DNA of 64,000 nucleotides from Phoenix dactylifera (taxonomy: Eukaryota > Streptophyta > Magnoliopsida > Arecales > Arecaceae). Under the pieces are notes generated by a model that worked only from the letters and a program-made list of their open reading frames with translations, ran no database searches and was not told where the DNA came from. The stretch spans positions 1,617,501 through 1,681,500 of the forward strand of contig NW_024067676.1 of assembly GCF_009389715.1 (NCBI RefSeq), read 5' to 3'. The translations under genes and the position numbers were made by a program. Position 1 is the stretch's first letter, and each line of letters opens with the position of its first letter. Shown one piece after another: positions 5,015 through 50,926 of this stretch.

Positions 5015-5181
5015 TAACCGTTTGGGGCCAAGATGGGATTCAAATTGTGCTCTCCCAACGGTCAGATATGACCTTGCGGCAGCGGAAAGGCACCGACGAG
5101 AATTTCGAAACCCAACGGTCGACTACTCCGGGCGGTCCGTCGGATGGGAATCCAACGGATATAGAATGCTGTCAACGGTCG
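5015..5181. promoter_or_regulatory. Cluster of five AACGG-core (MSA-like) motifs upstream of CSLD
   Basis: Five copies of the AACGG core occur in 167 bp: 5015-5025 (minus orientation, CCAAACGGTTA), 5054-5064 (CCCAACGGTCA), 5111-5121 (CCCAACGGTCG), 5151-5161 (TCCAACGGATA) and 5171-5181 (GTCAACGGTCG). The second matches the mitosis-specific activator consensus YCYAACGGYYA exactly; the first and third match 10 of 11 positions. MSA elements are bound by three-repeat MYB proteins and drive G2/M expression. The position, 230-400 bp upstream of the CSLD start codon, fits a promoter. Function is inferred. Confidence 0.6.
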
Positions 5182-19715: not shown

Positions 19716-22700
19716 ATGGCTCCAAAGCGATTGCCGCCGGCGGAGGAGGCGGAGGAGGACAGGAATAGATCTCAGATAGGGAAGCGATGGCGGGGCCTCT
19801 TAGTCCAGTAAGTATCTCGACTTGCTGTCTTGTATTCTTCTCTCTTCTTCTTCTTCTTCTTCATCATCTTTTCTTTTTTTCTTTTTAATTAAAACAAAAA
19901 GTGGAGGGTTTGCTTATATCTGTACTCTCTTGTTGGTATTTCATTCAGGGATGTTGTAGCCGAGCTCCAGCGGCTGCTTCCGGAGGAGCTTGAGAGGGTG
20001 ATTCGCAGAGTGGTATAAATTGAGCCTTGAATTGTGATAAAATGTATGATGAAATAGAAGAAATGACAAGCAACCTTTGCCAAGGAACCCATGTTGACGT
20101 GTGTTTAGTCCCACATCGGTTATTCACCGAGAAGATCTTGGGTACTTATACAGGACTAAGAAATCCAAAAAAATATCTTCCGGCTAGTCTTTTTGGGTGA
20201 GGTCCTGGGTTGTTAGAGTTAGCATAGTTCGTTGGCACCTCACCTCTGAGGGCTTGCCCACACACACCGAGAAAAGAAAAGAAAGGACAAGCAATCTTAT
20301 TATTTAGTTCGATTACTTTTTATCTTAGCAATTGAATCTGATCAATTCTTATTTCTTTAGATTATAGTCTCTATAATTTATTAAAAATGGAAGAGAAAGG
20401 AAAAACAATCTTAATAATTTAGTCTAATTACTTTTTATTCCTTTAGATTGTGCTTTTTATAATTTATATTGTGGTTGATTTAAGATACCTAGGATCATGG
20501 TCTGTTGTACCACCCCATACCATCTGATATAGAGTATACCGCACTGTACCGAGAGAAAACCAATATGAAAGTTAACTTCAAATCGGTACAGCTCTGTACT
20601 AAGATGTACCGCCTGTACCGAGGTATACCGACCTGTGTCGAGGCGTGCTAACCTGTATTAAGGTATATCGAGATGTATCGAAGTATATATAGGCCCATAC
20701 CGAAGCATACTGAGCTGTATCAAGACGTACCGAGATAAAAATTGAGAAAAATGATTAGAGAGCTAACTCGATACTGAAGCATATCGTACCATACCGTATC
20801 ATACTGAACCGATAAAGTACTGATACAGTATCTGATATCGAAATTGCAGATCTTGCCTAGGATTGTATTTAAACTTTTAAATAAGCTACAATAGGAAGTT
20901 TATATGTTATTTGGTGTTGCATCTTAATTTTTGCATTCCAAGAAGTGAGTGGCTGAGCTTGGATTTCATTGAAAGGGGTTGGTCTCATGTTTTATATTAT
21001 CGATTGCTTTTGTTCTTTTGGACTATTTATGCTAATGGGAAGTCGAGTGAAGTGGTCTTCTTTTCAAAAATTCTTTTTCTCTGGATATGTTCTTTGCACT
21101 TCCGTACATTTTTTTAGGTGTTTAGGTTTAGGTAGCTTAAGATATATTACCTAGGGGCTGTATTTCTATTTGAATCTTTTCTTGATAATTTGTGCTTAGG
21201 AGATTAATGCAGTTTCTGATATTGATTTTGCCTTATTCCCATTATGCCAAGGATCTCCTCTTGCTGTAGTTCTTATTTTGTATATCTTTTCTTAGGGTAT
21301 GTTTGGAAAATCCAATAGGATTAGGCTGAATTTTCGGTAGAATTCGGGCATGTTAGCCTGCCCAGCCCCTTTTATTTTCTAAAAGCCCGTTCTAATCTTG
21401 GCCTAAATCCCATCTATAGGCCTATTGAATTGTAACATAAAAAAAAGACCTATGGAGATCTTTTTGTTTCTCTCACAAGATTTGGGCTGGAGAGGGATTG
21501 GGTTGATATGGGCCTTACTTAAATAGACTGTGTAATCTATGGTCCAACGGGAAACCCAGCCCAGCCCTACTGGATTTCCCAAACAGGCCCCTAATGTTAT
21601 ATTTCTATCATATTTGTGTTTCTACATGCACACAAATATTTTGTCATATTTATGTTTGGACATGTTCTTTGTACTTTTGTATATGTGTTTTTTTTTCAAT
21701 GTTTAGGTTTAGATAGTTTAATATATACTTGAGGGTTGTGTTTCTATTTGAATCTTTATAATCTTTGTCTGCTAATTTGTGCTTAGGGGATGAATGTAGT
21801 TTCTGATATTGATTTTACCTTCTTCCCATTTGGCTAAGGTTCTTGACTTGTTGTAGTTCTTATTTTCTATATGTTTTCCTTAATGTTATATTTCTGTTAT
21901 ATTTGTGTTTTTACACATGCTCACACACATGAACAGATGCAACACACGCACGCATATATTTCAAGTTTCCTTTTTAAGTTAATTAGGAAGTTTAGGATAA
22001 GGTTTTAGATTTATTGTCTTTGTTGGAAGTATGGTTTTTAATCTGTGCTTCAGAGATAATTGTATTGTTGATGTACTAAAGCTTGTTTTCTTGCCTATCA
22101 GTTGCAAATATGTCCTAGTTTACTTCCTACTTTTTGTTATTTTCCTTGCATTCTTTTTAAATTTTGGAAACATATCCTTGTCTTTTCTAAATTTTAAATT
22201 GTGTTTAAATAAGTTTAATTGGAAGTTAGAATATCTTTTAGGATTTGTTGTTGATTTTTGTCTTCAGTTTGCAATATGTTCTTCAAAGAGAAATACCTTT
22301 ACCCAATATTTTGGCCTTTCCTCTCCCTGTCATCTGAGATTTGTTCCAAGTTTTGGGAACTTAGGTTGGTTGCTTCATGGCTACACAAACTAAATGTATC
22401 ATTAACTATGTTGCTTGTCATGACAGTAAAGGACAGTTTAACAAAAGGAGGGAGGATTTTTCTTGGTACACAATATAATTTGATGTATCTACATGCATCA
22501 CGTCATAGGTTATGTATTTCCTCAAAAGAAACATTTAAATATAAAATAAAAAACAATAATTTTCATCATTTTACTTAGTAAATTTGATATTTTATCCTAA
22601 TTGTTGAATAATATATTAAACATTGCACACACTGACTTTCCAGATCAATTGTGGAAGCATCATTTAAGCAGTTAATGGGATTAAATGGGTTCTTAAACAA

Positions 22701-25700
22701 TTAAGCATTATTTTAGACTGCCAAGCAAACTAAATGACTGCTCGGTCTTTAGATGGGTGTTGCTAAATAATTTAGCATTTCGGTCTTTAAACATTCAATT
22801 AGCTCTTTTAGATAAGCTTGCATCGGAATTCATATATAGAGTCCAAACTAAATCCTCGTCCTACACTAAGCAGACCCTGTCTTGTTGCATGACCACGAAA
22901 ATGAGGTGCAGTTGCCTCAATAATCCATTATGGTTATCACCCTCAATTTATGAAGACATGCAAGTGAAACTAAAGCACAGAATTTTCAATGTAAATCAAC
23001 ATCATAAATTAGATGACTGATGTTGCTTTTTCATAAGGAAATCTTGAGTGGGAGTTCTCAATCCCTTCTGAAAACTCCCAACTACATGAGACTAATGTTA
23101 CATAATGCATTTTTTGTTATAGTCTTGCAAGGGCCCTTTCTCATTGTCTAAAGTCTATTAATAATGCAGAAAAATCTTACAGGGGTGCTTCAAATATGTG
23201 GTGAGAGAAGGGTTAAAACAATGTTGGACTCATTCATTGAGATCCCTGTCCTTCAATTCAATATGTTAATCATAACTCTTCATGATGAAAGAACTCATGC
23301 ATGTAATATAAAAAGATTGGATTGAAGGAGCACTCAACCAAAAATAACTGGGAGTAGATGCACAAATTAACAATAGAATGACTTCATCTCTTTGGACATC
23401 TTCAATTATTTCATCAATGATCTTAGGTAAAATGAGGTGCTTGATACATACATTGACTTTAAAGCAGTTCACTTCCCTGACTAGCTTCTGACAAATCATG
23501 GTACTTGTAATCAGGTTCCAGAAGTACTGAAATTACTTGCCAACCATGTTCAGCCAGCTTTCAGGTACATCTTGTCTCAAAGTTCCTAGTACTTGTAAAT
23601 GTCACTCCTTGGAATGTTTCTGTTATAGCTTAAGGAATGGCACACCATTTTCCTACCATAAATTTTTATTTGTTTGTGCCTACTTGCTGCCAAATTGAGC
23701 TGACCATTGTGCATAATGCCCAGTGCTTCAAATAAAAAACCAGAGTTTTAGAATTTTGTGAATAATATGTGCACCAGAACTATTTTTTTTCGATAATTTA
23801 TTTTTAACTAGTTTTTTTGTATAAAATAAAAAGAAAACACTGTTTTTTATAGCTACATTAGTTTGACAAAGTTTACATGTGCTCTTTATATCTGTGGTTG
23901 TTGATCTGACCTCCAATTGGTACATTCTGTTTTCTGGTGTCATTCTATGTCAGTTTGGTGATTGTTTTTTTGTGACACGTGTGTGCATTTACTTCACGTG
24001 TGTTTTACCATATAGAAACCATGCTGTGATGCATGAGAACATGTTTTTTTTTTTTTTTTGCATTGTACCAGATTCGCTCAATTCATATATTGTAGCTTAA
24101 GGATAATATCTGATGCCTTTGTATGGATCATGGAACAGAATATTAATATCCAATGCCTGTTTCACAGACTACCAATCAATCAGGATGAGGAAATCAAGTA
24201 TCGTCTGCATTTTCAGAACAAGTTACCTCAGGAGATTTTCACATTCAGCAGAATTGTATCAGCAGACAGGATGGGACTTCAGATAGCTATAATGGATTCT
24301 AATTTAAAGGAGGTTATCACTTCCAATCCCTGGTCCTCAGTTAAGGTTGAGATTGTTGTTGTTAATGGTGATTTTGATCGTGATGGACAAAAAAATTGGA
24401 CGGAGGAAGAGTTTAAAAATAAAGTGGTAACTCAAAGAGGTAACAGAGGACCATTGTTGGTGGGAGAACTAGTTATTAAGCTGAACAATGGGATTGGTTG
24501 GCTTGCTTGTGCCAATTTTACAGATAACTCCAGTTGGACGAGAAGTCAGAAGTTCAGGCTGGCTGTGAGAATTTGTCAAAGTGGGAACATTGAAGAGAGA
24601 GTTCAAGAAGGAATAAGCGAGCCTTTTAGGGTAAAAGAACGCCGTCTGGAATGTAAGTTCATCTCATGTTGAATTTGTTTACCCTTTAACTACTTAAAGG
24701 TGAAAACAAAAGACAACTCATTTAAATGACTTACTATAGGAGACCAATCTTTTTGTTGGAATATATGCCGGGATGCACCATCGATATTTTGTTTCTAATG
24801 AACATCTTATGATACCACACAGGTACTATTGCTAGCAAGTTAACATCATGTTTCCATTGCATTCAGGCCCATGACTCCCTAATTGACAAGTTTGTTTGCA
24901 GTAGTGAGGTCTTCAACTGAACCATGCTTACCCATGAAAAATGTGATAATAATAGTAGTCAAAATCCAAGTTAGAAAATTAGTTTAATTTTCTAGCTAAG
25001 AAAGCTGTAATTTTATTGAAGTCATGCCACCTTTTCTCATGAAGAAAAGGGATTATGTTGAAAGTTGAAACTTTTAAGTGAATAGGGAATGACGCCACAT
25101 TTGATAAGCATGTGTGAGCATCAACTGAATCAAGTAAACTATTTCTTTTGGCTGTTTTGTTTATAATTTTCTTAGTTAAAGGTGGTTTTGCTAATGCTTT
25201 CCAGTGCAGTATTTTTATGGTTCATGGAGATCAGGTAGCTAAGTGAAAAGCTGTCATTATACTGAAAATGATATAATATCACAATAAGGTGGCTTCCAGT
25301 TGTTGTCCATTAAGGAATGGGCTTTTCCACCTGAAATGGGCCCTCAAGGATGTAATGGATGTAAAGTTGCGGCCAAGAAATAGACAATTGGGTGAAAGTA
25401 TTGAACTGCTGAGCTGATTGGTCACCAGCATGCAGTCATCTAGAATTTAAGAGGAAAGGATGTCCTAAAAGTGCAGCTCTCTTGCAATTCCTATGATCTC
25501 TGTTTTGTATAAAATATTAAATGCGGTATTGTTTCCATTTAGTATGTATCTTTCTCATACGATCAGCACACAGGCATTTTGATATCAGTTAGAAACCTGC
25601 ATGGAGAATGAACATGACGAAAGTTTAAGCAACCTGTAAGTGTGTAAGTAATTGCTCCTTTGTTTCTCTGTGTTCTCGGTAAACGGGTCAGTAACAGGAT

Positions 25701-28700
25701 TATTCTGTCTTGGAAAATGTCTTCAGATATACTGGATTGCATGTAAATAATCAGTGTAAGGACTTCATGTATATGATACATGTAAATATATGTGGAGAGT
25801 ACAACAAACTTAGACTAACAAAGACAAATGGAAAATATGATAATTATATTTCTATTAATATGGTTAGTCAACTTTGGCTACACTTATTCTTACGTTGAAG
25901 TTGTCTTGTGATAATTTCAGCAAATCAAAAGCATCATCCTCCATTGCTGACTGATGAGGTGTGGCGTTTGGAGAATATAATGAGAAACGGTGTTTTACAC
26001 AAGAGGCTTGAGAAAGGTGGGATCCATACTGTGCAGCAATTCTTACAAGCCTTCACTACGGATCCTGAATGGCTGCGAACTGTAAGCAAGTCTCCAATAA
26101 ATATTCTAGCTAAGATATTGTTGTAGGGCACGAACTTATAAAATTTTACATCTATTCTGTCAATTTTTAGTTACTTTGTGATGAAGTATCGAAGAAAGGA
26201 ATTTCAAACAAGAGGTGGGATGCAATTATTGCGCATGCTAAGGAATGTCTCATAGGCGACGAACTTTGTACTCATAATGTTGCAGGACAGAACATGGGTG
26301 ACTTTACTACATCTCCACAGGTGTTTTGATTCAGAAACTAATCCAAGAAATTGATTTATCGTGGTTCTTACATATATATTTCATAAGTCATGCAACTGTT
26401 TTCTGAACTGATCAAATTTGAGAAGTTAGTGTTAGACTCTGAGAAGTACTGGTAACTATTCAAAAGATAAGAGCTGGTAACAAGGATTATTTTATCTTTC
26501 TGACACTGCATATGAACCTGCCCACAAGCCTCATACTTTGATAGCTACTTCATAGCTCAATGTACCACTTATTTGAAACACGATAGCTACTGTCCCATAC
26601 TATCACAAAAACCTGTTTGCTTTGTTAGAGAGGTAGAACTGGAAGATCTTTAAATAGATTCATGTTTATGCTTCACTGTTTGTGCTTGATATTAGTGTAC
26701 CTGTTGCATAGCTTCACATTTACTATTTTGATACATTTATGATTTATCCATATCTAATCTAGAGTACTGGTGGATGCACTAATTTTACAACGTTGAATGA
26801 TTCCAGACTGATTTAAACCAATACATGCCAACCTCCTCTAAGGCCAAAACATGACCTTTCTACTATATATAAAGAAAACTCTAAAAGTTGGACATGAGAA
26901 GCCGGACTCCACAAAAGTGAAGCCTCTGTCTAATAATTACAGTTTTCTGGAATAGCAGGAGGTTTTTAATAAAAAATTCCACAATGGAACCTATGCTATA
27001 TAAGAGATAAATACTAAAATATCTTTGTTTCCACAAATACTAGACTTATCATGTGCAATGCATGTGACAAAGACTAGTATTATAGAATGATACTGTAGAC
27101 ACCTCCTAGTTGTCGTAATTCGTAGCTACTTGCTTCATTGACTAACTTATATCCCTATCCTTCATCTTTACCATCATCACACACCCTCTAATCCGGTATA
27201 TAGGGCTGCAACTCAAGCAGGTTGGATAAGGTTGAGGGTAAACCCTAAACCAACTCAACCTTTAAACACCTCAACCTTTACCCAATCCAACCTGGTCTTG
27301 GGTTGGGATTTCTCTGACCCAATCGTATGTATCTTAAGCTTAATTTAAGCTGGATTGGCTTAGTTGGCTCGAGCTGGGTTAGTTGGGTTGTATCATGTTA
27401 ATTGGATTAAATCAAGTTAAATAGTAAATTTAAGATAAGGGAAAGGTTTGGGAGTTGGGACATTTTTTGTTAGAATAAATACTTGTTCAATTGAGGCCTC
27501 AATTAGTCCTGAATTTTAATGGTACATTTACAAATAATTTAATATGATTAAAATATATAAACAAATAACTAATACATATGAAACATAAATTTGAATTATT
27601 TATTTTATTTAAATATTCTAGGTTGGATCGAGTTGGGTTGCGTTGAATGTCATCCCTAACAAAACCTTACTTAAGGTTGGGTTGCAATTTTTGAGCCGAA
27701 GCCCAACCCAAATTTATAAAATCTCAACCCAACCCTACCTAATGAGCAGCTTGAGCTGGTGGATTTGGGTTAGCCCAAGTTGAAACCCTACCGATATCTT
27801 CATAATTTTTTCCTTGATTTTCTATTTTATCCCTTTTTTTTATTTTTCTCATTAAAAAGCTTTTAAGGATCCCTTAATCTAACCTTAACCCTATCATAAT
27901 CACCCGATCTGACCCAATTTGACGTGATCCTACCCGATTCATCCTAACTGGTCCAACTTGATCTTGCACGATCCAACCTAATCTTACATGATTCGACTTG
28001 ATCCTACATGATCTGACCAATAGATCCAACTTGATCCAAATGATTCAACCGATCCTACCTAATCTTGCTCGATTTAACCTGATCCAGCTTAATCATACTA
28101 ATTTGATCTGGTTAATCCTTCTTAATTCAACCATTCTTACCCAATCTAAATTGATCTACATGTTTGGACCTGATTCAACCCCGATCCTGTATATCCTACC
28201 TAACCCAAGCTTAATTAACCTAGCCCTAGGGCCAAACATAACTCATACACATAAAAAGCCTAAAAATCTACTCTTAAATTGAAATTAGATCCAGCTTAAG
28301 GTCCATGTAGGCTTAGAATAAGCCCAAATTTCATAGCCTCATCAATATCATCCTTGATATCCTCACCACCTTTTCCTTAGCATAGGTGCACATAGTGAAG
28401 ATTGAGGAATATTCCATCACGTGGGCTACTTTCTTTTTGCCTCAATCCTCTTGTCCTTGGACCACTTGGGACTACTTGTTTATGAGTGTGAAAATTGGCA
28501 GTCTAGCATCCCTCCATCTCATTTTTGTGATGATTTTCCATAACTAACTCAATCCCTCATCCTCTCTCCATGTGCCATGTGCTTTCCCAAGGGCATACAA
28601 CCATTCTTGCATGAATTCCTACCTCAAATAAGGATAAAGGAGAGATCTTTTCCACAACGAACTCTCCTTCTCCTTGATGCCAAATCTGCTACACGCATTG

Positions 28701-31700
28701 GCTTGGTATTGCTGTTTTGTGTTGGGCCCTTATATCTCTCCCTAGAAATCCCTTCAATGCTTAAAACCTTTCTTGGATCTAGTCCTAACCACATCAAGCC
28801 CACTCAATTCTCATCCATTTGATCTCTTTCTCCTTCCTCTACAAAACCCTAGCCTTCTATATGTCCTCCACACCATCAATCCAAGAGAGGAGGGAAGTAG
28901 CCTTTTTCTAACATCTAGCACTTCTCTCCATCCTTGGATCATAATCTCCCTCTTCATCCCAGCCCTTCACCCAATCTTTTCATCCTAACAATCCAAACAA
29001 ACATAGATTTGGGAAACATATCCCTACAAATTCTCAATTATCCATATCATTAATTCAAGCCACCTCCTTATTAGCCAACAACTAGCTTCCACCTTATAAC
29101 CAAGTACCGAACCGGTACCAAACCGGTTCGGCTGGTTCGGCCGGGTTTCGGCTACGACGCCATTTTTTTCTGGCTGCGGGCAAGCACGAGCGTGCGCAAA
29201 AAATGCCACAGCATAGCTACAGTGGTATTAAATGCTGCTATAATGATATTGTAGCTGCACTGTAATGGTACTATAGCTACACTGTAGCTGTTACAGTGAC
29301 ATTAAATGCCGCTATAAAGATACTATAGCTGCACTGTAGCTGTTACAGTGGCATTTAATGATACTGTAGAACCACATTATTGCCACAGCGCGGAGCTACT
29401 ATCCTACGCAATTCGAAGCATCTCACGGGTTAGATTTTGCTGCCGACATATTCGGATAGGCCTCTCCACAGTTGTATTATCAGCTAGAGAACATCTCTCA
29501 AAGCTAAAGCTTTAGCAAGATTGCTTATAATTCGGCACACGTTCCTCATAGGATGAACATACAAAGACTAAGCCACCACTTGGTTAGAGGGGTGGGTTAA
29601 TGTGTCTTCTGATTATACTAATAATCTGGATATCTACGAGAGGCATTGCCACTCGGCCCGATTTTAGATATCAGTATGTATGTTGGACTTTAAAAGTATG
29701 TAATTGATTGTATCTTGATTTGAAGTTATTTTATGTTGTTCATTTTATGATTTGCATCATTTTAAAGCAATAGATGCATTATCTAGGATAAATCGGGATC
29801 ATAGAAATATCAAAAAATATCAAAAAAATTATCAAAAAAAATATCACATTAGAATTAAATTCATAGAAAAAGATCGAAAAGAAAAAGAACTACAAAAAAA
29901 ATAGGGTATGCCGGTCAGTGAACTGGCATGCCCTATCGGTTCGGCCCAAACCGATACTGAACCGTACAAGGCGCCGACCAGTATAGGTCTCGATACCGGT
30001 TCGGCGAACCTTGGTACCGAGTGTCAATACATTCAACTGGCCCCATACTGAGCGTACCAATATAGTAATAAATTGGTACCAATATGGGGTCTAGCATCGA
30101 GACGGCATACCTTGCTTTCAACTTTCATCCTCTACCTCATCCATCCCACATCCATGGCCCTCTCCCCTCCAACACCATTAAACTTAAGCCTTCTCCAATC
30201 AAGCTACCTTCAAGACAAGCAAGAAGACCTACTCCTTTGTTGGGGTTCTCTCTAAGTGGAGACCCAATACCAAAGAGGGTGGTGGAGGAAGCAGCCGAAG
30301 AACCTGGAGGCACTATAGCCTCTTTCATCTCCTTTAGTGCATTTCTTCAAGTATTTGCATTTTTTTATTTTTATAATATTTTTTGGATTATTTTCTACAT
30401 GTATTTTATAGCATCTACCAATCTAGATGTAGGCTTGGTTTCATGCTTAAACATGACCTTGGAAGCATATGGACCCTTAAGGACCTCCTTTGTTGGAAAA
30501 ATAGGGGTGGTGCACCATAGGGTCCTTCCGCCACCGTAACTTAAAACCCAACCCCAAGACTTATCCATGGTTCAAGGTGTCCTAGGCACCTTTTCTATAG
30601 TAAAAGCCCAGGTGGTGGCTCCATTAGGTGCCCGCAAAGGCGCAAATATTGTATGCAATACCCATTTAAAACATAGCACTAAATTTGCATTCCGACATTA
30701 TTTTGTCATGGAAAAATTGCAATTTGCTGTAACTTGGGAATAAGTCAGAAACTAAAAGCTTGATATTTTTATTGAGTCAACATAAACCTTGGGAAAAAAT
30801 GCTGTGATGAAATCTCTAAGAATATTGAAAATGATTTTACATTATGTCAGAGAACATTGCTACTAGGATTTTATACCATACAATCTTGCAAATATCCTGC
30901 AACAGAATTTAGCAGTCATCTGAGTTGAGATTCTGATGTAACCTAGGTTAAGGTCTTAGTGTTACAATTTTGAAGGATTACAGATGAGGTGATACAAGTT
31001 GAATCAAAGAGGAAAAAAATACAGATGAGGTGTTAAAAGACTCTCTTAGCTTTCTTCAAGATTATATCCAAACGCTACAGAAAAAGGTATTATTTCAAAG
31101 GAAGCATTCCTAGAGTTTCTTTGGTTAAGGAATATTGAGGTTTTGGTGGAATATTTAATTGTGGTGGAAGGAAAGGGATGTCGATTATGTGGTTTGAGGA
31201 AATCTATCTCAAGTCTGATCTGATTTATTTCTACTTTTGCGTAAAACTGATTTTGTAGGAGGAAAATATGTATTTTCAACTCGCTGCGAAACAACAAAAG
31301 AAGGGGAACAGTTTTTTTTTCCAGATACATGTAATAGAAAAAGGTAAACAATTGAGAATTGAAGGAAAGCAAATCTATTTCTGTGCATACCCTGGCTTTT
31401 TGGATACCTAGGCAGCTAATCCCTTAATCACCAAGGTGAGCTACTAAGGGGCCAGGCAGACCTTTGAAATTGAAGTTCTGCAATAATTGATTATATTATA
31501 AAAAAATGATAAATATATACATATAAGTAAAGCTAGTTCTCAAAAAAAAAATACTAAAAGCTTTAAATTGCAAAAAACCTAACTTATCGTAGACAAAAAA
31601 ACAGGGTTAGGTAAGACCCTTTAGCTAATGCCAATAATAAATAAATGAAAGAAGAATTTAGCTAAGAAGAGGAAGAGGAGGAATTTGAATTCTCAATTGT

Positions 31701-32990
31701 ATAAAAGAAGAAAAGATTAGGACAAAGAGGAGGAAAACAAAGAGGAGAAAATTTATTTTGAGGGATTTTGAGTGTCTTTGTTCTAGCTGGAGCTTGAATA
31801 TTGTGCTCATGCTTCCGTCTCCCTTTTGTTTATCAATTGATACAATAGAAGAGAAGAGATGGGAATATGTTAAAGATTATGGAGTAAATTGCATGATTTC
31901 TTAGATGTTGATTTTAACTTCCATATATCACTGTTGTCTTGTAGAGCTACTACCAATTTTATTATTAAAATAATTAACTGTAGAATATATAAATCAAGAT
32001 ACATACAAATGGTCACATGGACTACTAATTGTATATCAGTCACCTGCATCAATAAGATAATACATAGAGAAACCTGAGCAAGAAATTGATGTCCCAAGCT
32101 AACAAGCAGCTCATTACTGTATGTCATGGGATCTAAACAATTTGATGCCCTCCTTCCTCAGGCTCATAAAAGTCCCTGTTTATGGTTTGTGACAATATTG
32201 CTTCCTCTGAATTACACGAGACCCCGTCGATGTGGACAGCGTATTGTGCATCACAGAGAAACCTGAGCAAGAAATTGTTCTAAATATCGGCTCTCTTCAT
32301 TCAATGCATGTATTTATTTTGTTTTATAGTTTATACTCTATAAAGTGCTCTTGTAGTTCATCTTAAACAATACTATTCTCGTTTTGCAGGATCTTGTAAT
32401 GCAGATGGGTGATTTACCAGTCGGCAGCATTCCCACACCCACCAGGACAGCAACTGCTATCATTCCAGTGCCACTGAATCCTGACTACCCAGCCAGACAT
32501 TATGGTAGTTAACGTTTACTAATCTTGTGCAATATCATTAAGTTCCATTATCTCCCCGACTGCTGCTTGATTGATGTTGAAACTTCTGACAGATGAATCA
32601 GCTGCCCATTGGGGTTTCCAGCATCCTAATCAAGACCTTTCAGATGAACAGGGATTCTATCAGGTTCAGCAGCCTCTTTCCTTCCAAGCAAATAGTCCCG
32701 ACACAGCTGACATTTGTTATGGGAACGCATTTAGATCCATGCATACCAGTGGAAGGGACAGGAATATGCCTGATGAATCGGAGGTAATGTTCTTGGAATT
32801 CCGGCAGCCTGATTTTTGTGGTGCGGCTGTCCCAACATCTCCTCGGAAGTGGGCTAAGCTGATCTATGGCCTCAAATTTTGGATTTTAATGAGCAAGCAT
32901 ATAGCCGCCAGAAGGCCAGGAGTTGTGCATCTGGAGTGTCCAAACATGGTGCCAACTAGTTGCCTTCATGCACTTGGAGCAGGGTGGTGA
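19716..32990 (+). CDS. CBP60: CBP60-like calmodulin-binding protein, copy A, internally shortened (8 exons, 504 aa)
   Basis: Exons: 19716-19807, 19949-20012, 23515-23564, 24168-24652, 25921-26081, 26171-26320, 32390-32504, 32593-32990 (1515 nt, one open frame). CBP60 proteins are plant-specific, mostly nuclear; several bind calmodulin and DNA in immune signalling. Visible: basic start MAPKRLPP, central core YRLHFQNKLP ... NFTDNSSWTRSQKFRL, linker DEVWRLENI ... HTVQQFLQAF, and a basic helix RKWAKLIYGLKF ... KHIAARR near the C-terminus, the probable calmodulin site. Compared with copy B, exon 6 lacks 66 nt (22 codons) and B's exons 7 and 8 (318 nt) are absent. Both losses keep the frame, so the gene may be expressed, but the end of the conserved core (FNSIYQL ... 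LVDYCKKLAFENP in B) is gone. The intron replacing the lost exons is 6.1 kb and full of transposon sequence. It could be a neofunctionalised gene or an early pseudogene. Confidence 0.8.
20095..20290 (+). repeat. Dispersed-repeat-like segment with 'TAGTCCCACATCGG'
   Basis: The block beginning GTGTTTAGTCCCACATCGG and running through TTTTTGGGTGAGGTCCTGGG to CACACACACCGAG resembles the short 'tcccacatcgg' repeats common near plant genes (TRIM or LTR-related). It sits in intron 2 of CBP60-A. Exact ends and class are not resolved. Confidence 0.45.
20496..20855. mobile_element. hAT-like MITE with perfect 8-bp target duplication, intron 2 of CBP60-A
   Basis: The 360-bp element is flanked by identical CCTAGGAT at 20488-20495 and 20856-20863. 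Its ends are short, imperfect inverted repeats (CATGGTCTG at the left, CAAGATCTG read from the right). The interior is a degenerate array of TACCG(A/T)-type units on both strands. An 8-bp duplication points to the hAT superfamily. No transposase is encoded. Confidence 0.8.
21060..21930 (+). repeat. Direct duplication inside intron 2 of CBP60-A, split by a MITE
   Basis: A segment at about 21075-21294 plus 21592-21640 recurs at about 21660-21930: both contain GTTTAGGTTTAG(G/A)TAG, TTTCTATTTGAATCTTT, TAATTTGTGCTTAGG and TTGTAGTTCTTATTTT in order. Copy B has a single related segment near 36060-36220. The MITE at 21295-21591 interrupts only the first copy. Confidence 0.8.
21295..21591. mobile_element. 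Tourist-like MITE (297 bp) in intron 2 of CBP60-A
   Basis: Terminal inverted repeats GGGTATGTTTGGAAAATCCA at the left and GGGGCCTGTTTGGGAAATCC read from the right. It is flanked by TTA on the left and TAA on the right. An unoccupied duplicate of the same site lies about 600 bp downstream (near 21885-21900), where the flanks join as CCTTAATGTTAT. This gives direct support for the boundaries and a TA (or TWA) target duplication. It fits PIF/Harbinger (Tourist) MITEs. Confidence 0.82.
26859..27077 (+). mobile_element. Short non-autonomous Helitron-like element in intron 6 of CBP60-A
   Basis: Starts TCTACTATATATAAAG, typical of plant Helitron 5' ends, and finishes in CTAG followed by T. Just inside the 3' end is a short hairpin (CATGTGCAATGCATGTG, stem with two G-T pairs). 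The expected A before the 5' TC is T here. Length is 219 bp with no coding capacity. Confidence 0.55.
27201..27790. mobile_element. hAT-like non-autonomous element in intron 6 of CBP60-A
   Basis: Ends TAGGGCTGCAACTCAAGC and, inverted, TAGGGTTTCAACTTGGGC match at 13 of 18 positions. They are flanked by CCGGTATA and CCGATATC (6 of 8 bases alike), an aged 8-bp target duplication. The TAGGG start and 8-bp duplication fit hAT. The interior is rich in GGTTGGGTTG / CAACCCAACC motifs. Confidence 0.7.
27850..28250 (+). repeat. Degenerate GATCC-type short repeat array
   Basis: Irregular, roughly 10-13-bp units of the type (T/C)GATCC(A/T)AC(C/T)T recur dozens of times with variable spacing. It lies in intron 6 of CBP60-A, next to the hAT-like element. 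No coding sense or known repeat family is recognised. Confidence 0.6.
29101..30114. mobile_element. hAT-like non-autonomous element, 1.0 kb, in intron 6 of CBP60-A
   Basis: Starts CAAGTACCGAACCGGTACC and ends, read inverted, CAAGGTATGCCGTCTCGATG. The flanks CTTATAAC (29093-29100) and CTTTCAAC (30115-30122) share 6 of 8 bases. The subterminal DNA is dense in CCGAACCGGTACCG on both sides. The interior has no transposase. The same CAAG end type and TACCG-rich body occur in other elements of this window. Confidence 0.65.
29195..29370 (+). repeat. Degenerate tandem repeat inside the hAT-like element
   Basis: About three units of roughly 50-60 bp built from ATAGCTGCACTGTAGCTGTTACAGTG and ATTAAATGC(C/T)GCTATAA-type blocks. 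Many sub-blocks are themselves palindromic (CACTGTAGCTGTTACAGTG). It is nested in the element at 29101-30114. Confidence 0.65.
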
Positions 32991-34492
32991 GAGCTGAGAA
33001 CAGCATTTGACTACGAAGATTGCTCAAAAAAACATCTGACCAAGGAAGCAAAGAGGGATAGGAGGATCTATCTCTCACATTTTCACTGTATTTGCACGTT
33101 AGAAGAGTCGAAAAGTTGAAAATAGTAGTAATCATGCTGCAGAACTTTCAGTTTCTTGTTATATGTGTGAAATTTTAGTATATACCAGCTTCATTTCTAG
33201 TACTATTGCGGTCAATTTATAGGTGATAAAGGGACAAAAATGTTATGTAATTTGGAATAATGATTTGTATAACTTGTGTGCTACTTCAATTCTAGTTCCT
33301 TTATTTGAATTATCAGCATCCATTCGCTTCCTCTCCGGTCTTCTATTGTGCAAGTAAATGCCTTTTTTTTCCTATCTTTTGTAGTTGTGGAATTGAATGT
33401 TACCTGCAGAGTAGATAAAGATGGAAAGCTTGCTGAGCTTGGTATCAGCAATGAGGTTTTCCTCAAAGTTGGCTGTACATGCTCACATGTATCACTTTTA
33501 TTCTCTAAAATATTTTCCGTGCAATCATTTTTTATCCGAACAAGAGTTCTGTAAGAGCTAGATCTTTCTGAATTAGCATTACATCCAGATGCATCTCTCC
33601 TCAATCATATTATTATATCCAATTAATAACAATATAGTTTTTTTCGTAACTTAGATTGAATCTTAATGTCTCACAATCCGAATTTATTAGAAGGTCAAAG
33701 GAGTGGCATTTCATTTTTGGAGATCATCCGTATAAGATAAAAAAGGAAACTCCAGATATTTGCTATATTTCTTTTTGAATGAGATCTCAATTCCAACTAC
33801 GGTTTGGTTTCTATGGTTGCTAGAATTTTATTAGTGCTTGATATTCCAACAAATCCTGCTACAGCTCTGGGTATTGTTGGAATTTGATGCAAATAAATTA
33901 CCAAGGATGTCATCGGTGCTGGAATTGGACCTGATCCCATAAGTTAGATTGACCTGAACCTGTCTTCCGCCTCCATTTCATTATCCTGTTTAGCCTACAC
34001 AAGTTTAGGCTTGGCTTTATGCTAAAGCCTCTCAGGTTGTCCTCGCATGTTTGGTCTTTAATTTTGAATGGAGCCCAACCAGATTACTAAGAATCAAGTA
34101 GAACTACAGAAAGCATATTGGTTTAGCAGACGGAATTGAACAAAAAGAACATGTTACTTGAAAGCAGAAAGGATGGGATTGTAGTTATGAGCCTTCTCAT
34201 AAAATGATCCGAGCTTCAATTCTTTGCTTTCACATTTTCAGCTTTTTTTCATTTTCTGTCTTTTTTTTTTTTTTTTTTTTGTGGATTGTAAATAATAGAA
34301 ACAATCAATTGAGCTATAAATAACTGACCTTTCTTGGCCGACCTGCAGACAGAGCAGACGGGTAAGATACTCCTATTGGCACTTTCCACTATTTGAGATT
34401 TAAAATTAAAACTTGTAATGGATTTGGAACAGGTTTGGAATTTCCCCCCTCCCGAATTTCTACTACCCGAAATTGATTATATATAATATACA

Positions 34493-35146: not shown

Positions 35147-38100
35147 ATGGCTCCCAAGCGGCCCCTCCCTCCGCCAGAGGAGGCGGAGGACGGCGGCAGA
35201 TCTCGGGCTCTCAAGCGATGGCGGCCCTTGGTCCTGTAAGTGCCTAGGGTTGGGGTTCTATTCCTTAATTTGCTACTAAAGTTGCTGATCCGTATATCTT
35301 TCTTGATTTCAGAGAGGTACTGGGTGAGCAGCGCTTGCAGCGGCTCTTGGTGGAGCTCGAGAAGGTGTTTCGCAGAGTGGTATCAATTCGATCTTTGACC
35401 TCATCTTTAGTGTCAGCTCAAGTTGTATTTCTTTTGTTCTTTTTTGTTTCTGATACGTCCTTGTGATTTATGTGTTTAAGATTATATTTAGTTTGAGGTA
35501 ATTAGGATTGTGCGGGGTAGGTTAGAGTGGAGGTTAGAAAATAATTTAAGATTGAGTTTGCATCCTGGGTTCCAATAAATGGCCAGTAGGTGCACGGATT
35601 TCTTAGAAAGGTGTTGATTTCTTGATGTTTTATATTAAAAAGAGCCAACATTTCTCTTGATTTCACTCATATTGCCTTTGTCCCTTTAAATTGTTCTTTT
35701 GTTGTAATACGTTGTTGGTTTTACATTTTTTAGGTTGTGGTTAATTTAAAATAAGTAGGATTGTTTTCAAGCAAGTCAACAGTAGGAGGTTGGATTTCCA
35801 ACTTTTTGAATTTCTGGATTCCAAAAAATGGCTGCCAACTGGATTGATTCCAAGAAATGGCTAGTAATGAATCTTGGATTTCTCAAAGACAGGTTGATCT
35901 CTTGATGGTTTATGTTAGTGGGAAAATTTCGTTCAAAGGATAACTTTGTGACTTATCTTCAGAGTTGTTATTTCAATTATTCTTATTGTTTGGCACTATT
36001 ATTGCCCAATGTACATTTTTTATTGTGTTTAATGTTGGTAGCTTGACATATGGTTGGAGGTGTATATCTGTAATCTTTGGCTGGTAATTTGTGCTTAAGG
36101 GATGAATGAAGTTTCCGCTACTAATTTTGATTGCTTCCTTTTTTATCTAGACTCTCATGTTGCTGTAGTTCTTATTTTTATATCTTTTCCATACAATTAT
36201 ATTTCTGTTGTATTTGTGTATTTTATATTTTTCAGTCTGCGTCTTGTTAAGGTAATTGGGAAGTTTAGGATAAGGCTTGGGATTTTGTTTTGAGTTGGGT
36301 GCATAGGTTATAACTTGTGTTTCAAGGATATCTGCATAATGTTTTTTTTCCAAAATCTAGCCTTACCACTTCCCTATCATCTGATATTCATATTAAGTCT
36401 TCAGAAATTTGGGTTGGCTGCTCCTTTGTTGGACAAACTAAATGTACCGTCGATTAGATTGCTTATCATGACAGCATAGGTCAGGGCTGACTTAAAGAGG
36501 GATATTTTTCCCTTAATACACACATGATGTTATACACCATGTAGTCCCTTTAAAGTGCGGTTCTTAACCATTTTAGGTAGCCTTTTAGGCAACCTTCCTT
36601 TGGATTTCATATATAAAGCCCAAACTAAGTTTAAATTCTACTGTAAGAAGACCCTGGTCATGTGCATGTTGCTCCATAAGTCAACTATGACCTCAACTCT
36701 CACCTTATGAAGACATTTAATGGGAACTAGAGAATAGAATTTTTAAAGAAAACAGCCAATATACTAAACTATATAAAATATCTTACCTTCTGTTGGTTGT
36801 TATTGCTATTGCTGATTTTCCATATGTAAATCTTGAATGGAACTATGGAAGTTCCTGATCTCTTTTCAGAAAATTCACAACTAAATGAGATTGTCATGCT
36901 AAAAAAAAAACAAAATATTGTTTCTCATAATATCGCGGAGGAATCTTTCTCATGATTCAGAGTTAATGAATATACAACAAGATCACATAGGTTTGCTTGA
37001 AATATGTGGTGTAAGAAGGGTTAAAAACAATGCTGGGCTCTTTCATGCAGACCCCGATCCTTAAAACATAGAAGGGTTAAGGATATATGTTCATGATGAA
37101 ATAACTCATGCATGTAATATAATAAAATGTTGTTGAAAGCAAGGATTTAAGTGCCACTGCTGCTGGGTATACCAGCAAATATGCCATGTCATTCCACAGC
37201 TTAAAAAAATAAAATAGGACTTAATAACCTTTTCTTATTTAAAAAGTACTTTAAAAAATAATTGATAGGTGTTATGCCAACCATGCTGTGTGTCTATACT
37301 AGCACAGCACAGTATGCACCAGCTGCCATGGATTGGCATGGGCCAGCATTTGAAATCTTGGACAGAAGGAACACAACTAATAACATCGAAAAGTAGAGAT
37401 GCATAAATTAGTAATAGAATTAGTTCTCTTTGGAAATTGCTAACTGTTTGGTTGATGATCTTAGCTAAAATGAGGTACCTGGTATATACATTGAGTTTAA
37501 AACTGTTCATTTCCCTGACTAGCTTCTGATAAATCATGTTACATTTTGTGATCAGGTTCGAGAAGAACTAGTGACATTATGTGCCAATAATGTTTACCAG
37601 CCCAGGTACAATTTGTCTCAACGATTGACGCTACTTTTAGGATCCATAATCACTTTAGGATTTGAACTTTTCTCTTACGGTTCAAGGGATGACATGCCCA
37701 GTTTCTTGCCATATATTTTTTGTTGATTTATCTTCTTGCAGCTGAAATGTGCTGAATATTGTTCACTATGCCCAATGCTTCAATATTAATATACTTTTCT
37801 GTTACAGTATAATTATGAACATATTTTTTTATAATTTCAATGGAAAGTATTATTTTAAAATTATTGTTGGATACATAAAAATTACTATAATAACTAATAA
37901 TTATTATAAAATAGATATTGTAAAATAGTTATAGTATTATTGTGATATTATATATAGATTATAATAAGAATCATTATGATATAATCAAGGTTTAAAGTTT
38001 CGGCTGAAACAGATTGGCTTTGGCCAAAACCGGTCCTTAGTTAACCAGAATTTTCAATTTTGGATAGTTTCGGTGGTTTGGCCGGTTTAGGTAGTTTTAG

Positions 38101-41100
38101 TAGTTTTGGCCAAAACTAACCGAAACTATATTTTTTTAGGTTAACAACTAAAAAAAATTAAAATTTTTCTAAAATTAACAACTCTGCTGGTTGCACCTAC
38201 ACCAGAGTAGGGTGAGCAGCCGTTGTATCAAAAAAAAAAAAAAAACTGCAAATGCAATAGTAGCTATTTGGTTTTATGATATTCAAATAGATACGTAATC
38301 CTGCGAATGATCTAGTAAGGTCACCCCTAAAAATAATTGTCATATTACAAAAATTATGTATCATTACCTTGACAAATATATATTTTATAATATATTGTTA
38401 TCGTCACTAATAATTACTACTAATATTATTATAGTAATATTATATATTCTATGATAAGAATCATTAAAATACAATAATAATAATTAAATAATTATATTAT
38501 AATCATAAAAATAATTATGCTATTAAATATTTATTATAACATTAGAGCAAGAATTATCATATTAATTCTATATTTAGATAATAATATTATTAAATACATA
38601 TCGATTATTATAAAAATAGTTATTATGGTAATTATTTCAGTAAAAAGATTCACTATTATAGAGTTAGATATACTTTATAATCATTATATATCTATGATAT
38701 TTATTTAATTATTATCATATTATATATTATTTTAATATTATATATAAACTATAATGAGTCATTATAATCAAATAATAATTAAATAAGCACATCATGATCA
38801 TAATAATAGGTGCAGGCCTTGACGCAATGATAAGTCTTCTTTATTGTGATCTAGGTCATCATAGGTTCAAAACATAGAAACAATCTCTCTAAACATGGAA
38901 GTAAGGTTGCATACATCTGACCCTCTTTAGACCTTACAGTGGCGAGTCTTTTGTACATTGGGATACCCTTTTATGATCATAATTATTTTATCAAATAATT
39001 ATTGCAATATTATAATAATTATTATATCAATATACTTTTCTATTATAGTATAATTATGAACATATTTTTTTATAATTTCAATAGAAAGTCTTATTTTAAA
39101 ATTATTGTTGGATACATAAAAATTACTATAATAACTAATAATTATTATGAAATAGATATTGTAAAATAGTTATAGTATTATTGTGATATTATATATAGAT
39201 TATAATAAGAATCATTATGATATAATCAAGGTTTAAAGTTTCAGCTGAAACAAATTGGCTTTGGCCAAAACCGGTCCTTAGTTAACCAGAATTTTCAATT
39301 TTGGATAGTTTCGGTGGTTTGGCTGGTTTTAGCTAGTTTTAGCAATTTTGGCCAAAACTAACCGAAACTATATTTTTTTAGGTTAACAACTAAGTATATT
39401 TAACATTTTCTAAAATTCATCATGCAACTGAATTATACATTTTAAGGTTCTACTAGTCTGGACAAGGTCTAATTTTCTATAAACTTTGTTAATGGCATGT
39501 AAGATGCAATCATAATTTGTGCCTTTAATTCTAAAGAAGCAAGCAACATTATAAGGTGTAGTAATGGTGATTGTGAACTATCCCATCACTATCCTCATCA
39601 GCATCAATTCTCCCACCCAAGTCATAATGATACTGATTTGCATGCCCCCCCCCTGCAATAGCATGTCATATTAAATTGATATATATACTCAATTTTGTAC
39701 TCTTATATACTTATTAACTTCTACAATCAAGTGATATTTGGTAATTCATGCAATAGATAAGTACAATGAATTAAGCTTCATTATAGTTTAAGTCTAGCCT
39801 AAAATTGCAGAAATTATATAAGTTTTGATTCTAGATAACTTAAAACACAATAACATGATACAAAATAACTTGCCTTGATTTTTTTTTAAATTCTTTGTTA
39901 ATTTTGTAATTTTCCTGGTCTTTTGGCCAAAACTCTGAAATTCAGTGGGAATTGTTGAAATTGTCAAAACTGCCATTGCCAAAACTACCCTAGGGATCGA
40001 AACCGAAGCTGATCCGAGTTATAAAACCTTGGATACAATAATTATAATTAAATAAATATATGACAATCATAATAATTGTTATATCGTTAACATTATAGCA
40101 ATAATCATTACAGTATTATACTATTATAAAATTTATTTGATATTATAATAGTTATATACTATTATAATAATAAATTTATACATTATTATGTATTTATTAA
40201 AATAATTAATATTTATTTAATATGTTGAAATTATATAATATTAAATCTCAGTGGTTGGAGAGTGGTGTGGGGACTCATTTTAGGGCTGGTTACAATTGCT
40301 TGAAATCTTTAATAGGAACATGGACAGTTTCGCCTGTAGTTCCAATTACAAGATTAGACCATTTTTTGCACTTCAAATGCAGCCCAGAGTTGCAATTGTG
40401 AGCATCCAAACTTTTGTTTTGGATGTCTGCAATTCATTTGCAACTACAATCTACCCAATTGCAAGCAAACCAACAGTCCCTGAGAGTAGAATAAGAATAC
40501 CTCACCATAAAAGTGCTATTATTTGCCTAATGGCAAATATTATCCTGGGAAAGTAAGATGAGCATTTTATAGTAGACTGAAAAATCCTGCCAGTTTATTG
40601 TTGATATTGTGAAGTGCGGCAAATCTGAATCCTATATCCCAAAGGAAGTCTGTGTCTTCCTTTAAAAGATCAGCAACCTTAGCTTCTTTCTGCATACTTA
40701 GATTGTACAAGGACCTTTGAGTAATATGTGCATATTTTTGATAACTTCACATGTTCCTAGTTTTCCTGTAAAAATATTCAAAAAATATACCTTTATTTCA
40801 GCAACATGTAACATTGCTACAGTTCACATATACTAGCTCTTAGTATTTGCAGTTGTTTTGCTGATACCTACACATGGTAGGTTTTTCATTGACATTATTT
40901 ATATCAATATGGTTATCATCTTTTATGGCACATGTGTGTGCATTTTCTTTCATGAGTGCCTAACTATATAGAACTGTCATGATGCATTAGAAGAATGTGT
41001 TTTATTTTATATCATACCAGAATTCCTCAATACACGTCTGGGAGCTTAGGAATAATAACTGATGTCCTTGTTTGGGTCATTGAACAGTATTAATTTTTGA

Positions 41101-44100
41101 TGGCCATTTTTATGGACTGATCAGCAATCAGGACAAGAAAATCAGGTATCGCCTGCATTTTCGGAACAAGCTACCAAAGGTGTTTTTCACATTCAACAGC
41201 ATTTTAGCAGAGGATGGGATGAATCTCCAGATAGCTCTAATGGATTCCAACTTAAGGGAGGTTATCACTTCCAATCCCTTGTCTTCGGTTAAGGTTGAGA
41301 TAGTTGTCATTGATGGTGATTTTGTTGGTGATGTACATGAATATTGGACTGAGAAGCAGTTTAAAGATCGTGCTGTACCTCCAAGAGATGGTAAAGGACC
41401 ATTGCTGACAGGAGAGTTGGTTATTAAGCTGAACAAAGGTGTTGGTGATCTTGCTCATGCCACCTTCACAGATAACTCGAGTTGGACAAGAAGTCAAAAG
41501 TTCAGGCTGGGTGTGAGACTTTCTCAAAGTGAATGTTTTGAAGATAGAGTTCAAGAAGGAATAAGTGAACCTTTTAGGGTAAAAGATTGCCGTGGGGAAT
41601 GTAAGTTCATCTCCTCTTAATATTTTTACCTTCTTAATTTTTTTCTATACGACTCTGAAGGTGGGAAATGATAAATTCATTGGAATAAATAATGAAAACA
41701 ATTTCATCTCTATGTTGCAATATATGCCAAAACATGCCATAGATACCCTGTTTGCAATGAAGAAGAACAACTATATGATACCACACATGCAGATAAGATG
41801 TTACTAACACAGTTAATGCCCTCATTCATTAGCATTGATGCTCATAACTCGATTAGTTAACAAGGTTGTTTTCAACGATTGGGCCTTCAATTGAACTAGT
41901 TTATCCACAAAAAAATGTCACAAATAATAATACTAGTCAAAGCTAAAGCTCAAAAAATTATTATATCATCTTAAAACTTTTGTTTTTCTACTTAATGGAG
42001 TTGTTATTTTGTTATGTCAATTTTATCTTTCTTCATGCAAAAAAGGGCAGAAAGAAATAAGAAAGAGATTATTCCCTTAGAGCTTGTCCAATACCAGCAA
42101 TACTCAAAATGCATCTCCTTCGCTCGCGGGCTGCCTTGCATGCAAGAGAAGCGCTATTGGCGAGTTTTGTTTGCTTTGTCCCTCTTGACGTCGCTGGTAA
42201 TCCCAACTCGTATTAGCTATCGAAAGCCATACTTACCTTCCTACTTGCCACAAGTAATCTTAGCGTATACATTGTTAATTATTATATTCCAACTTCCAAG
42301 ACTTCATTCATAGATAAAGGTTGAGACTATTGAACCTGTCATACATAATCTGATACATTGATGCCTTTTTAATTTTAATTTCTCATCTAGATTTTTCAAG
42401 TTAATATACTGAAGCTTTGTATGTGGCAGTACCAGAAAACCATGTTATATGTCTTTGAATAATATGGACTTCTACATTTCACGATTTCCAAAAACGAAAT
42501 TACTGTGTTAAAGGACATCAAAAATTCAAGAATCAGTATAATTTTGAACTATTGCCTGGTCATGTGTTGCCAAACAGAGAACACTCTCAATTACTAAATA
42601 CTAGAATGTAATCACTTCTGTTTGTCCAAATCATACACATAAAAAGAATTCTTTGAGATTTGGTCATGTTTTGTTGAAGTGTGTGGAGCTTATGGTGGCA
42701 ATATTTTTTTGCTTTCGGCTTTCAGAACTGTCTGGATCTTGCTTTGATAAAAAATTTATATGTTTAATCCCTATGAGATAATTATGATTATAACTAAATG
42801 GCAGATATTCAAAGCTACCCTTCAAATATGAAAAGCTGGCATGTACTCGTCAATCATCTATTTTTTCTTGTTTTGCCCATGAGTATTTTGCCCCTTGAGT
42901 AGGGACACCTCTGACAGGTGTGTGCGAACATGGTTAAATCGAGTAGCCAATGCCTTTGGCTGATCATTTTGTAATTTTGTGAATTTAGAGGTGGTTTGGC
43001 AAATGTTATCACAATAATTTTATGTTTTATGGAGATCAGGAAGCTAACTAAGAGGATCTCATCATATTGGAAATATATAATATCAGGTCTATGCAGCCTT
43101 CCAGTTGTTGCCAGTGTAGTAAGGGATGGGCTTTTCCACCTGAAGTGAGCCCTCAAGGGTGTGATGAATATACAGTTGCAGACTTGATCAAGAAATAGGC
43201 TATCAAGTGACAGAAATTAAACTGGCTGGATGATTGGTTACCAGCATGCAGTCATTTTCTATGAAATTACCCTGTAGCATTTAGCATTACTGAATGCATC
43301 ATTGTTTCTATATACGTTTCTCATGTGATAATCATACAGTCACTTTGTTATGATATCAGTTATGAAACCTGTACGGAAAACAAGCATGATGCAAATATTA
43401 TGCAACTGTTATTTGGACAAGTAGTTGGCACCATTGTTTCTTGGTGAAATGGTTTTCAGTGACATGATCATTCTGTCTTGGAGAATCTCCTCAGTTATAT
43501 TGGATTGCATTACTGCAATTAGCATACAGACTTACATTACATATGATCCATGTAGATATGTGTCGAAATTGTCTCATACAGATTGAAATTCATAAGCATT
43601 ATCTACAATAAACAGTAGATGTACAAATACAGACGGAGAATACGATAAAAAAGAATGAATAATATGGTAATACAACTGTCAGTCGTACTTACTCTCACAG
43701 TAAATCTATCTTGTGGCAGTAAATCAAAAGCATCATTCTCCATCACTGACCGATGAAGTATGGCGTTTGAAGAATATAATGAAAGATGGTATATTTCATA
43801 AAAGGCTTGTGGATGGAGGGATCCATACCGTGCAGCAATTCCTACAAGCCTTCACTATGAATCATGAAGGGCTGCAAAGTGTAAGCAAGTTATCTCATAA
43901 ATTTTAGCTAAGATATTCTGGTAGCATGCAAACTCAAAATAAAAGTTCACTACTTTTTGCTTCCAACTTTTAGTTACTTGGTGACAAAGCAAAAAAGAAA
44001 CAAATTCCAAACAAGAAGTGGCAAGGAATTCTGTCACACGCTCAGAAGTGTCCTGTAGGCAATGAGCTTTATTCATATAGTGTTTCAGGGAAGAATTTTG

Positions 44101-49029: not shown

Positions 49030-50926
49030 TCCCTTATCTCTAAATCCTATTCATAGTCACGAGTTCAGATCATAATTTGGAATTTGAAAAGAAAATCCAA
49101 AAAAATTCAAAAATAGTTCTGATTACAAAAAATAAAATAAAATATTAAAATTAAAATAATACGACTTTTTAAAATATTTTAAATTTATTTATTTATAAGT
49201 ATAGCCGTATAGGAGAGAGAAAAATAATAAATGACATCAAATAAGGATGCATGGCATCATTAATTTGTAATACAAAAATTTTAAATGAGTCACAAATAAT
49301 TCATGAGTAAAACATAAAATTTATGTATAATCCAAGAATAACTTGGTAGTTCAAACTTGTTTGCCACAGCCATTATGCATGCCTGGAGCTTTGACTTTAC
49401 CAGCATGTTTGCTCGACCTCATGGCTCTCCATAATCCATTGACCGTCCGCTTTTATTCACGACCGGCTATTGATATTAGCCTTCTTATAAACATTGCATC
49501 CGAGCTTCAAACTTTTGCCTTATCATCTTTTTTTGTATTTCTTTATCTATTTCTCTTTTCTTTCTGAAGTGTAAGAATGCAGATAATGAATTAAGTTATG
49601 AATTACTGACACTTCTGGACTGGCCTGAAAGCAAACCAGGAGGGTGAGAGAATCCTCCTCTTTGGCACCGATCAATACCACTATCCATGCAACAAACAGA
49701 AGAAAGTATTTTTGCCATCTACAACGAGGGAACAAGGCCCTCAATCTCTTGTGCCATGGGATAAAAAGAAAGCCTGGAAATCTCTCATCTTTGTCTTATA
49801 AGCCTTACCTTCCACTTGGCACCTTTCCACTAACCGGCCTCTTTCCACCAATGCCACCGGAAACAGGAATCCTCCCTGGCTGGCGCATTGTTTGGCCAGG
49901 CCCATTCGACACTTCTCGAGATGGAGATTGGATGAGGGACGTCCTGGTGCACAGAGGAGGAAAGAAAACCATTAAAACATTATAAGTCCAAGTTAGTTAA
50001 AGACATGCACCTCAAATTTCAAACTGTGGGCAGAGTTAGTTAATTAGTTATTAATTAATGAAAAGATCAAGCTGTGGTTTAAGATGCAAAAACAGCAAGT
50101 CCTTTCATTGTATAAATGAACTTTGAAGTGATAATCAAATCGTTTAAACCTTGCAATCGGAAAAAAAAAAAAAAGGAGCAATATTTTAGGCTGTTCTTAC
50201 AGGAGCAGTTGCCAGTTCATAGCACTGAATACAGTCCAAGGATTCAGATACATGGATTGCTTTCGTCTCTTAAAATGTGCTGGTTCAGATTGAGGATGAT
50301 GTGGTAAAAAAAAAAAGGAATAAGATGAGTAACTCCAAGGAAGCATAATAGCACTAGTGGAGAATCTAGCAGCAGAGAGTTGACTGAGATGGCATGCATA
50401 GTGCAACAAAATCTGAGAAGATTGTATTAAGTAGAGTGGCTCAAATTTCGGTCAATGCATCAAAAGATGGAATGCAGATCTAAACCAGAAATGGGCGGGC
50501 GGAGGTCTTAATTAATTTTTTATCAAATCTGATAGCGTTACTAGTGCAGCACTTGATAAAAAATGCATGGTTAACTAAGGTTACAATGATCTGCATTGTT
50601 GGAGGTAGATCAACAGATTCCATCAAAACAGTCCCTAACAAATAGAAATATCTGCCACCTGAAATAAGCAATTTTTAGGAAGCTCTCTATCTCTGAAAGA
50701 AGTTCTTCTGTACTATCTTGGAGTACAAGCAAAAATCAATAGAATTAGAATTAGATCTAACTTCTTTAGAATGACCAGTTATGCCAATAACAGAATTATG
50801 TTAGGGACAGTTTCAGTTTCATATCAGAAATCAGAAGTTCCAATTTCATATCAGAAATCAGATTCTATCTTATTTATAGTCATTTTGGATTTATAAGTAT
50901 AAAGAAGTAACTTTATCACAAATGGA
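49030..50926. other. Intergenic stretch between CBP60-B and the kinesin gene
   Basis: The two genes converge here, so their 3' UTRs lie at the ends. The middle is AT-rich with A tracts near 50161-50175 and 50307-50319. The open frames around 49343-49985 have no recognisable domain. Confidence 0.5.

Follow-up and report, generated by a model that had tools for sequence, protein, structure and literature searches.

CBP60g and SARD1 turn on salicylate-dependent immunity. Two genes of the CBP60 family, A and B, occur in head-to-tail order in the date palm within the window, i.e. the whole stretch of 64,000 nucleotides from Phoenix dactylifera contig NW_024067676.1 that was analysed. B is full-length, while its upstream neighbour A encodes a shorter protein that is interrupted by internal losses. 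This raises the question of whether A is a misdrawn gene model, a decaying duplicate or a working protein with a role of its own beside B.

The models of both genes were reconstructed from the window sequence (Table 1). For B, 569 of 569 aligned residues are identical to the date-palm protein P0001, annotated as 'calmodulin-binding protein 60 D-like isoform X2 [Phoenix dactylifera]', an isoform without B residues 158-184. Exon 4 of B is preceded by the acceptor gatcag (41125), which keeps the frame, and B contains no AG at the place where A has cacag (24168). Intron 3 of B carries a direct repeat of ~395 bp (37783-38176 and 39024-39417, 95% identical, with a spacing of ~850 bp). A segment 3' of A (34186-34374) matches a segment 3' of B (49474-49656) at 69%, and this match suggests a tandem unit of ~15 kb. 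Comparison of the window with itself at E 1e-8 revealed no third CBP60 copy.

Table 1. Coordinates of genes A and B, of the segments that distinguish them and of the neighbouring genes, in window positions.
Feature	Position	Strand	Basis or detail
Gene A, CBP60g-like without Calmod_bind_C	19716-32990	+	open frame of 504 aa, 8 exons, 7/7 introns GT-AG
A exons	19716-19807, 19949-20012, 23515-23564, 24168-24652, 25921-26081, 26171-26320, 32390-32504, 32593-32990	+	
A exon 6, 22 codons short relative to B	26171-26320	+	alignment of A, B and P0007
A intron standing in for B introns 6-8	26321-32389	+	deletion point 26640-26647
A-private insert, ~3.8 kb	26873-30651	.	alignment break relative to B 46360/46367
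A exon 7, homologous to B exon 9 and extended by 8 codons at its 5' end	32390-32504	+	gene models and alignment
A last exon with basic amphipathic helix (A residues 455-480)	32593-32990	+	1-5-8-14 pattern, charge
Gene B, full-length neighbour	35147-48475	+	596 aa, 10 exons, 9/9 introns GT-AG
B exons	35147-35235, 35313-35379, 37556-37605, 41125-41600, 43720-43880, 43974-44189, 45458-45620, 45723-45877, 47975-48041, 48129-48475	+	
22 codons of B exon 6, missing from A and P0007	44097-44162	+	alignment
B exon 7, no counterpart in A	45458-45620	+	163 nt
B exon 8, no counterpart in A	45723-45877	+	155 nt
Neighbour gene, cellulose-synthase family protein	413-5122	-	
Neighbour gene, Di19-type zinc finger	8970-9290	+	
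Neighbour gene, kinesin	50900-57000	-	CH-like stretch below the Pfam cut-off

The largest difference between the two genes is the absence of B exons 7 and 8 from A. This absence had been proposed in an earlier note on the locus and is borne out by the rebuilt models and the intron alignment. In B, the two exons span 318 nt and are bounded by phase 0 on both sides, and A exon 6 continues into the next exon in phase 0, so that the reading frame is kept, as the note had claimed. Homology between the introns of the two copies stops at A 26639/B 44526 and restarts at A 26648/B 46131, so that 1,604 bp in B (44527-46130) have no match in A. The single deletion of ~1.6 kb that had been suggested thus fits one intron-to-intron gap, and its breakpoints, formerly placed at about 26640 and 26690, are refined to these positions.

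Searches of the whole A intron (26321-32389) detected no relic of the lost exons above chance. The best local score was 14.5 for exon 7, equalled by 78 of 100 shuffles, and 13.0 for exon 8, equalled by all 100, while a retained exon used as positive control scored 106. Likewise, the lost pieces of B gave best E values against the A intron of 1.1 (exon 7), 1.2 (exon 8) and 0.40 (exon-6 part, see below) with tblastn, and of 0.11, 0.37 and 0.15, respectively, with blastn. It is extremely unlikely that the gene model is at fault and that further A exons lie between 26320 and 32390. The intron is 6 kb long and its model derives from genomic sequence, which would allow for such an error, but it holds no relic above chance, homology closes on both flanks of the gap, and a second protein, P0007, has the same junction of exon 6 with exon 9. 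By these alignments and searches, the absence of exons 7 and 8 from A is confirmed as genuine and not as a missed relic.

The assumption of only one loss was not borne out. There are two in-frame losses, since A exon 6 also lacks 22 codons of its counterpart in B (66 nt when counted by codon, one base fewer in the BLAST alignment). The best score for a relic of this piece in the A intron was 14.5, equalled by 19 of 100 shuffles. In all, A has no counterpart of B residues 323-344 and 354-459. The eight extra codons at the start of A exon 7 encode DLVMQMGD, which is absent from B and matched in P0007. Within the private insert in the A intron, positions 29395-30015 belong to a dispersed repeat, of which the genome contains many copies at 75-81% identity (best 40 of 1348 candidates scored).

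In Pfam searches, A contains the Calmodulin_bind N-terminal domain PF07887 (residues 80-226, 172 bits) and the central domain PF20451 (residues 240-310, 81.9 bits). PF20452 (Calmod_bind_C) is not detected in A at E up to 1 and scores 62.1 bits in B, which has all three domains. Because PF20452 is absent from A and present in B, A is, by its domain profile, a domain-losing derivative of the CBP60 family and not a standard member. The lost exons had been described as the end of the conserved core followed by an acidic spacer, and this agrees with the disappearance of PF20452 together with a linker, whose part encoded by exons 7 and 8 contains 14 acidic and 6 basic residues. Also in line with the earlier description, the putative calmodulin helix at the C-terminus is still encoded in A, with W, I, L and M at the 1-5-8-14 positions and a net charge of +5 over 24 residues. 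The predicted model of the A-type protein comprises a beta-sandwich and central helices at high confidence and no ordered C domain, while an ordered C domain with a helix-strands-helix arrangement is present in the B-type model.

An SH2/STAT identity of the lost C domain was considered and dropped, with a Foldseek rmsd of 16 and profile searches that were empty or weak. Foldseek aligned STAT6 (4y5w_D) with the B-type model over 379 columns and with the A-type model over 163, and with a different STAT (6qhd_B) the A-type model still aligns over 253 columns. The VIA matches cover the N-terminal domain only. A profile of the C domain retrieved nothing from PDB sequences, and from Pfam only its own two families and weak rows with a single member.

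The retained parts allow for the alternative that A is functional without acting as a brake on its relatives, and that it serves a different or weaker programme, e.g. as an ancestral splice form without exons 7 and 8 that was made permanent. This is unlikely. The phase 0-0 block of B exons 7 and 8 and the retention of PF20451 and the C-terminal helix in A are consistent with it, but the exon-6 loss does not lie at an exon border and splicing alone therefore cannot produce the form seen in A. Furthermore, no B isoform that skips exons 7 and 8 was seen, and P0001 differs from B elsewhere.

The date-palm genome search yielded 14 PF07887 rows, which correspond to 12 loci without stops, including A and B, and one stop-bearing locus with two rows. 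When all 12 open loci were placed in one tree, the ten others divided into four b-f-type, one CBP60a-like and four SARD1-like loci and the CBP60g-like locus L010, which stands beside Asparagus; A and B make up another CBP60g-like lineage, which also includes Musa and Typha. The 12-row clade of A and B with the Lupinus and Vigna 60G proteins is supported at 99/99, and a 19-row CBP60g-like clade has an SH-aLRT of 99 in a rapidly built tree, the outgroup of which does not hold together. Inside the CBP60 tree, A pairs with P0007, and B, Elaeis and Cocos stand next to them. In these trees, which contain no Arabidopsis sequence and in which the labels CBP60 G and SARD1 are the depositors' names, A and B are nearer to CBP60g than to SARD1, CBP60a or CBP60b-f.

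By hmmsearch, the half of the C domain that exon 6 encodes was clear in ten of the 12 open loci and weak (E 0.48) in the CBP60a-like one, and A gave no match. The protein of the CBP60a-like locus, P0074, is listed with PF20452 despite this weak value. The exon-7 half is uninformative as a genome-wide test, being clear in only five loci and weak in two. The broken locus L014 (C3:7993900-8003800) and the open locus L011 (C1783:14400-24300, on a 45 kb contig) have identical exon scores and may represent two alleles or the outcome of a recent duplication.

In the available part of a cotton survey (PMC11049924), exon numbers and motifs are described as conserved in the family. A resembles the CBP60g/SARD1 factors in that it falls with CBP60 G beside the SARD1 clade and keeps PF07887 and PF20451, but differs from them in having neither PF20452 nor the linker behind it. 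Among the best-matching open-licence papers, there was neither a study of palm CBP60 proteins nor a natural CBP60 or CBP60g without the C domain.

Comparison with relatives indicates that A lost the exons, as had been proposed, since they are retained in Elaeis (P0002), one Cocos copy (P0004), Musa and Asparagus; a gain in B is thereby ruled out. P0007, which derives from a single contig of 1,739 nt, has the exon-6 breakpoint of A, the junction of exon 6 with exon 9 and the eight-codon extension of exon 9. Five more residues are missing from it just before the exon-6 breakpoint, and its frame appears to enter the last intron and so to end before the last exon and the helix. The contig should be a transcript, because 397 codons from several exons fit on 1.7 kb. 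As P0007 has the same junctions, the domain-less state is, on this comparison, old and not a quirk of A alone; P0007 is known as a protein, in which genomic loss and skipping of exons 7 and 8 look alike.

The clade of A and P0007 is supported at 100/100 with all columns, 98/96 with the retained core and 96/83 with PF07887 alone, and in the PF07887-only tree the path from A is slightly shorter to Elaeis than to P0007. The larger clade of A, P0007, B, Elaeis and Cocos reaches 100/99 with all columns and only 81/79 with the core, where A and B agree at 155/234 sites. Since core agreement is 164/234 between A and P0007 versus 209/234 between B and Elaeis, with no significant difference in rate, the A/P0007 split looks older than the split between Phoenix and Elaeis, although hidden paralogy may contribute.

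Among the matches listed, 192 proteins were surveyed (one search gave 120 of 277 matches and two scored the top word-sharing candidates), and eight of them lack PF20452 (P0007, P0019, P0145, P0166, P0178, P0179, P0184 and P0190). The junctions of A were found in P0007 only, out of the six examined (all but P0184 and P0190), and the protein-database matches listed include none of A type from Elaeis or Cocos. P0145 (Colocasia esculenta, partial), for which PF20452 is likewise not among the matches listed, is interrupted by a separate internal gap that follows the HAQKC helix. It retains a stretch resembling exon 7 as well as a basic C-terminal helix, and looks like an independent loss. In the annotated Cocos nucifera protein P0003, exon 6 leads directly into the counterpart of B exon 8 in another frame (MKQLPMLVCGINLMH) before the frame returns to normal. 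Exon 7 looks lost or skipped here, which would be a distinct lesion in this domain unless the annotation is at fault.

An old loss does not by itself distinguish a working gene from a decaying duplicate that is weakly expressed or silent and whose deletions are steps of decay without function. Ka/Ks between A and B (NG86, 480 codon pairs) is 0.40 for PF07887, 0.43 for PF20451, 0.55 for the last exon and 0.84 for the short exon after the junction, in a pairwise comparison that does not separate the branches of A and B. Decay would be consistent with the overall value of 0.52, the private insert and the slightly higher number of private changes in A than in B (50/35, 52/37 and 43/31 at all sites with three outgroups), a difference that was not significant in any of 15 relative-rate tests. 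It would also agree with the database matches listed, which include the B protein and no A protein at 277-882 aa or 218-695 aa.

However, the frame, start, stop and all seven introns of A are intact, both losses are in frame, and their junctions are common to A and P0007. Under neutral drift, A would remain stop-free with a probability of 0.052 at a divergence of 0.05 substitutions per site, of 0.004 at 0.1, and in none of 2,000 runs at 0.2, which makes such survival unlikely at 0.1. In addition, the core of A is as near to Musa as that of B (76 versus 72 of 143 residues, and 41 versus 39 of 71). Decay without function is therefore a somewhat unlikely explanation, and A is probably an old CBP60g-like gene that is still protein-coding.

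A possible role for such a protein is suggested by work on Arabidopsis, which offers a published precedent for the dominant-negative action that the earlier note had raised as a possibility. In the accessible part of Qin et al. 2018 (PMC5993538), residues 211-440 of CBP60g activate transcription, and an artificial C-deleted CBP60g shows no activation and suppresses native CBP60g in protoplasts. Because this construct is dominant-negative, A resembles a natural version of such a protein: both keep the core and miss the C-terminal region needed for activation. A differs from the construct in being natural, in its internal deletion and in the retention of PF20451 and the C-terminal helix. The C deletion in that paper is not said to share the boundaries of A, and PF20451 of A may lie inside the activating 211-440. 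Related behaviour is described in excerpts of two further reports: the cbp60b mutant is dominantly suppressed by a CBP60g variant with weakened activity (PMC13354941), and in rice disease resistance a homologue that lacks a part associates with its full-length relative (OsCAMTAPL/OsCAMTA3, PMC11084498). Like OsCAMTAPL, A is a part-lacking homologue beside a full-length relative, although the families are unrelated.

A has lost Calmod_bind_C in frame, through the 22 codons of exon 6 and, via the 1.6 kb deletion, exons 7 and 8, and has retained the DNA-binding-type core and the C-terminal helix. In the proposed mechanism, the A protein would still bind CBP60g-type promoters with poor activation, and could compete with B and other CBP60g/SARD1-type proteins as a built-in brake. 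This reading of A, as an old, probably coding CBP60g-like gene that lost its C domain in frame and acts as a competing brake, is assigned a probability of roughly 0.45.

The same region of CBP60g raises the alternative that A serves as a decoy or as a copy that effectors cannot bind. The fungal effector VdSCP41 requires CBP60g 211-440 for binding, according to the part of PMC5993538 considered above, and part of the putatively corresponding region is gone from A. This alternative is very unlikely, as no palm pathogen effector is known from this analysis to bind it.

Returning to A as a competing brake, it is possible, if doubtful, that palms keep an ancient CBP60g paralogue with the architecture of a laboratory dominant-negative, which would restrain salicylate-type immunity, adjoin an activator and lack part of the effector-bound region. 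If true, A would represent a natural brake that arose by domain loss after tandem duplication and whose reading frame was preserved in two diverged lineages, and it matters as a gene of a crop palm.
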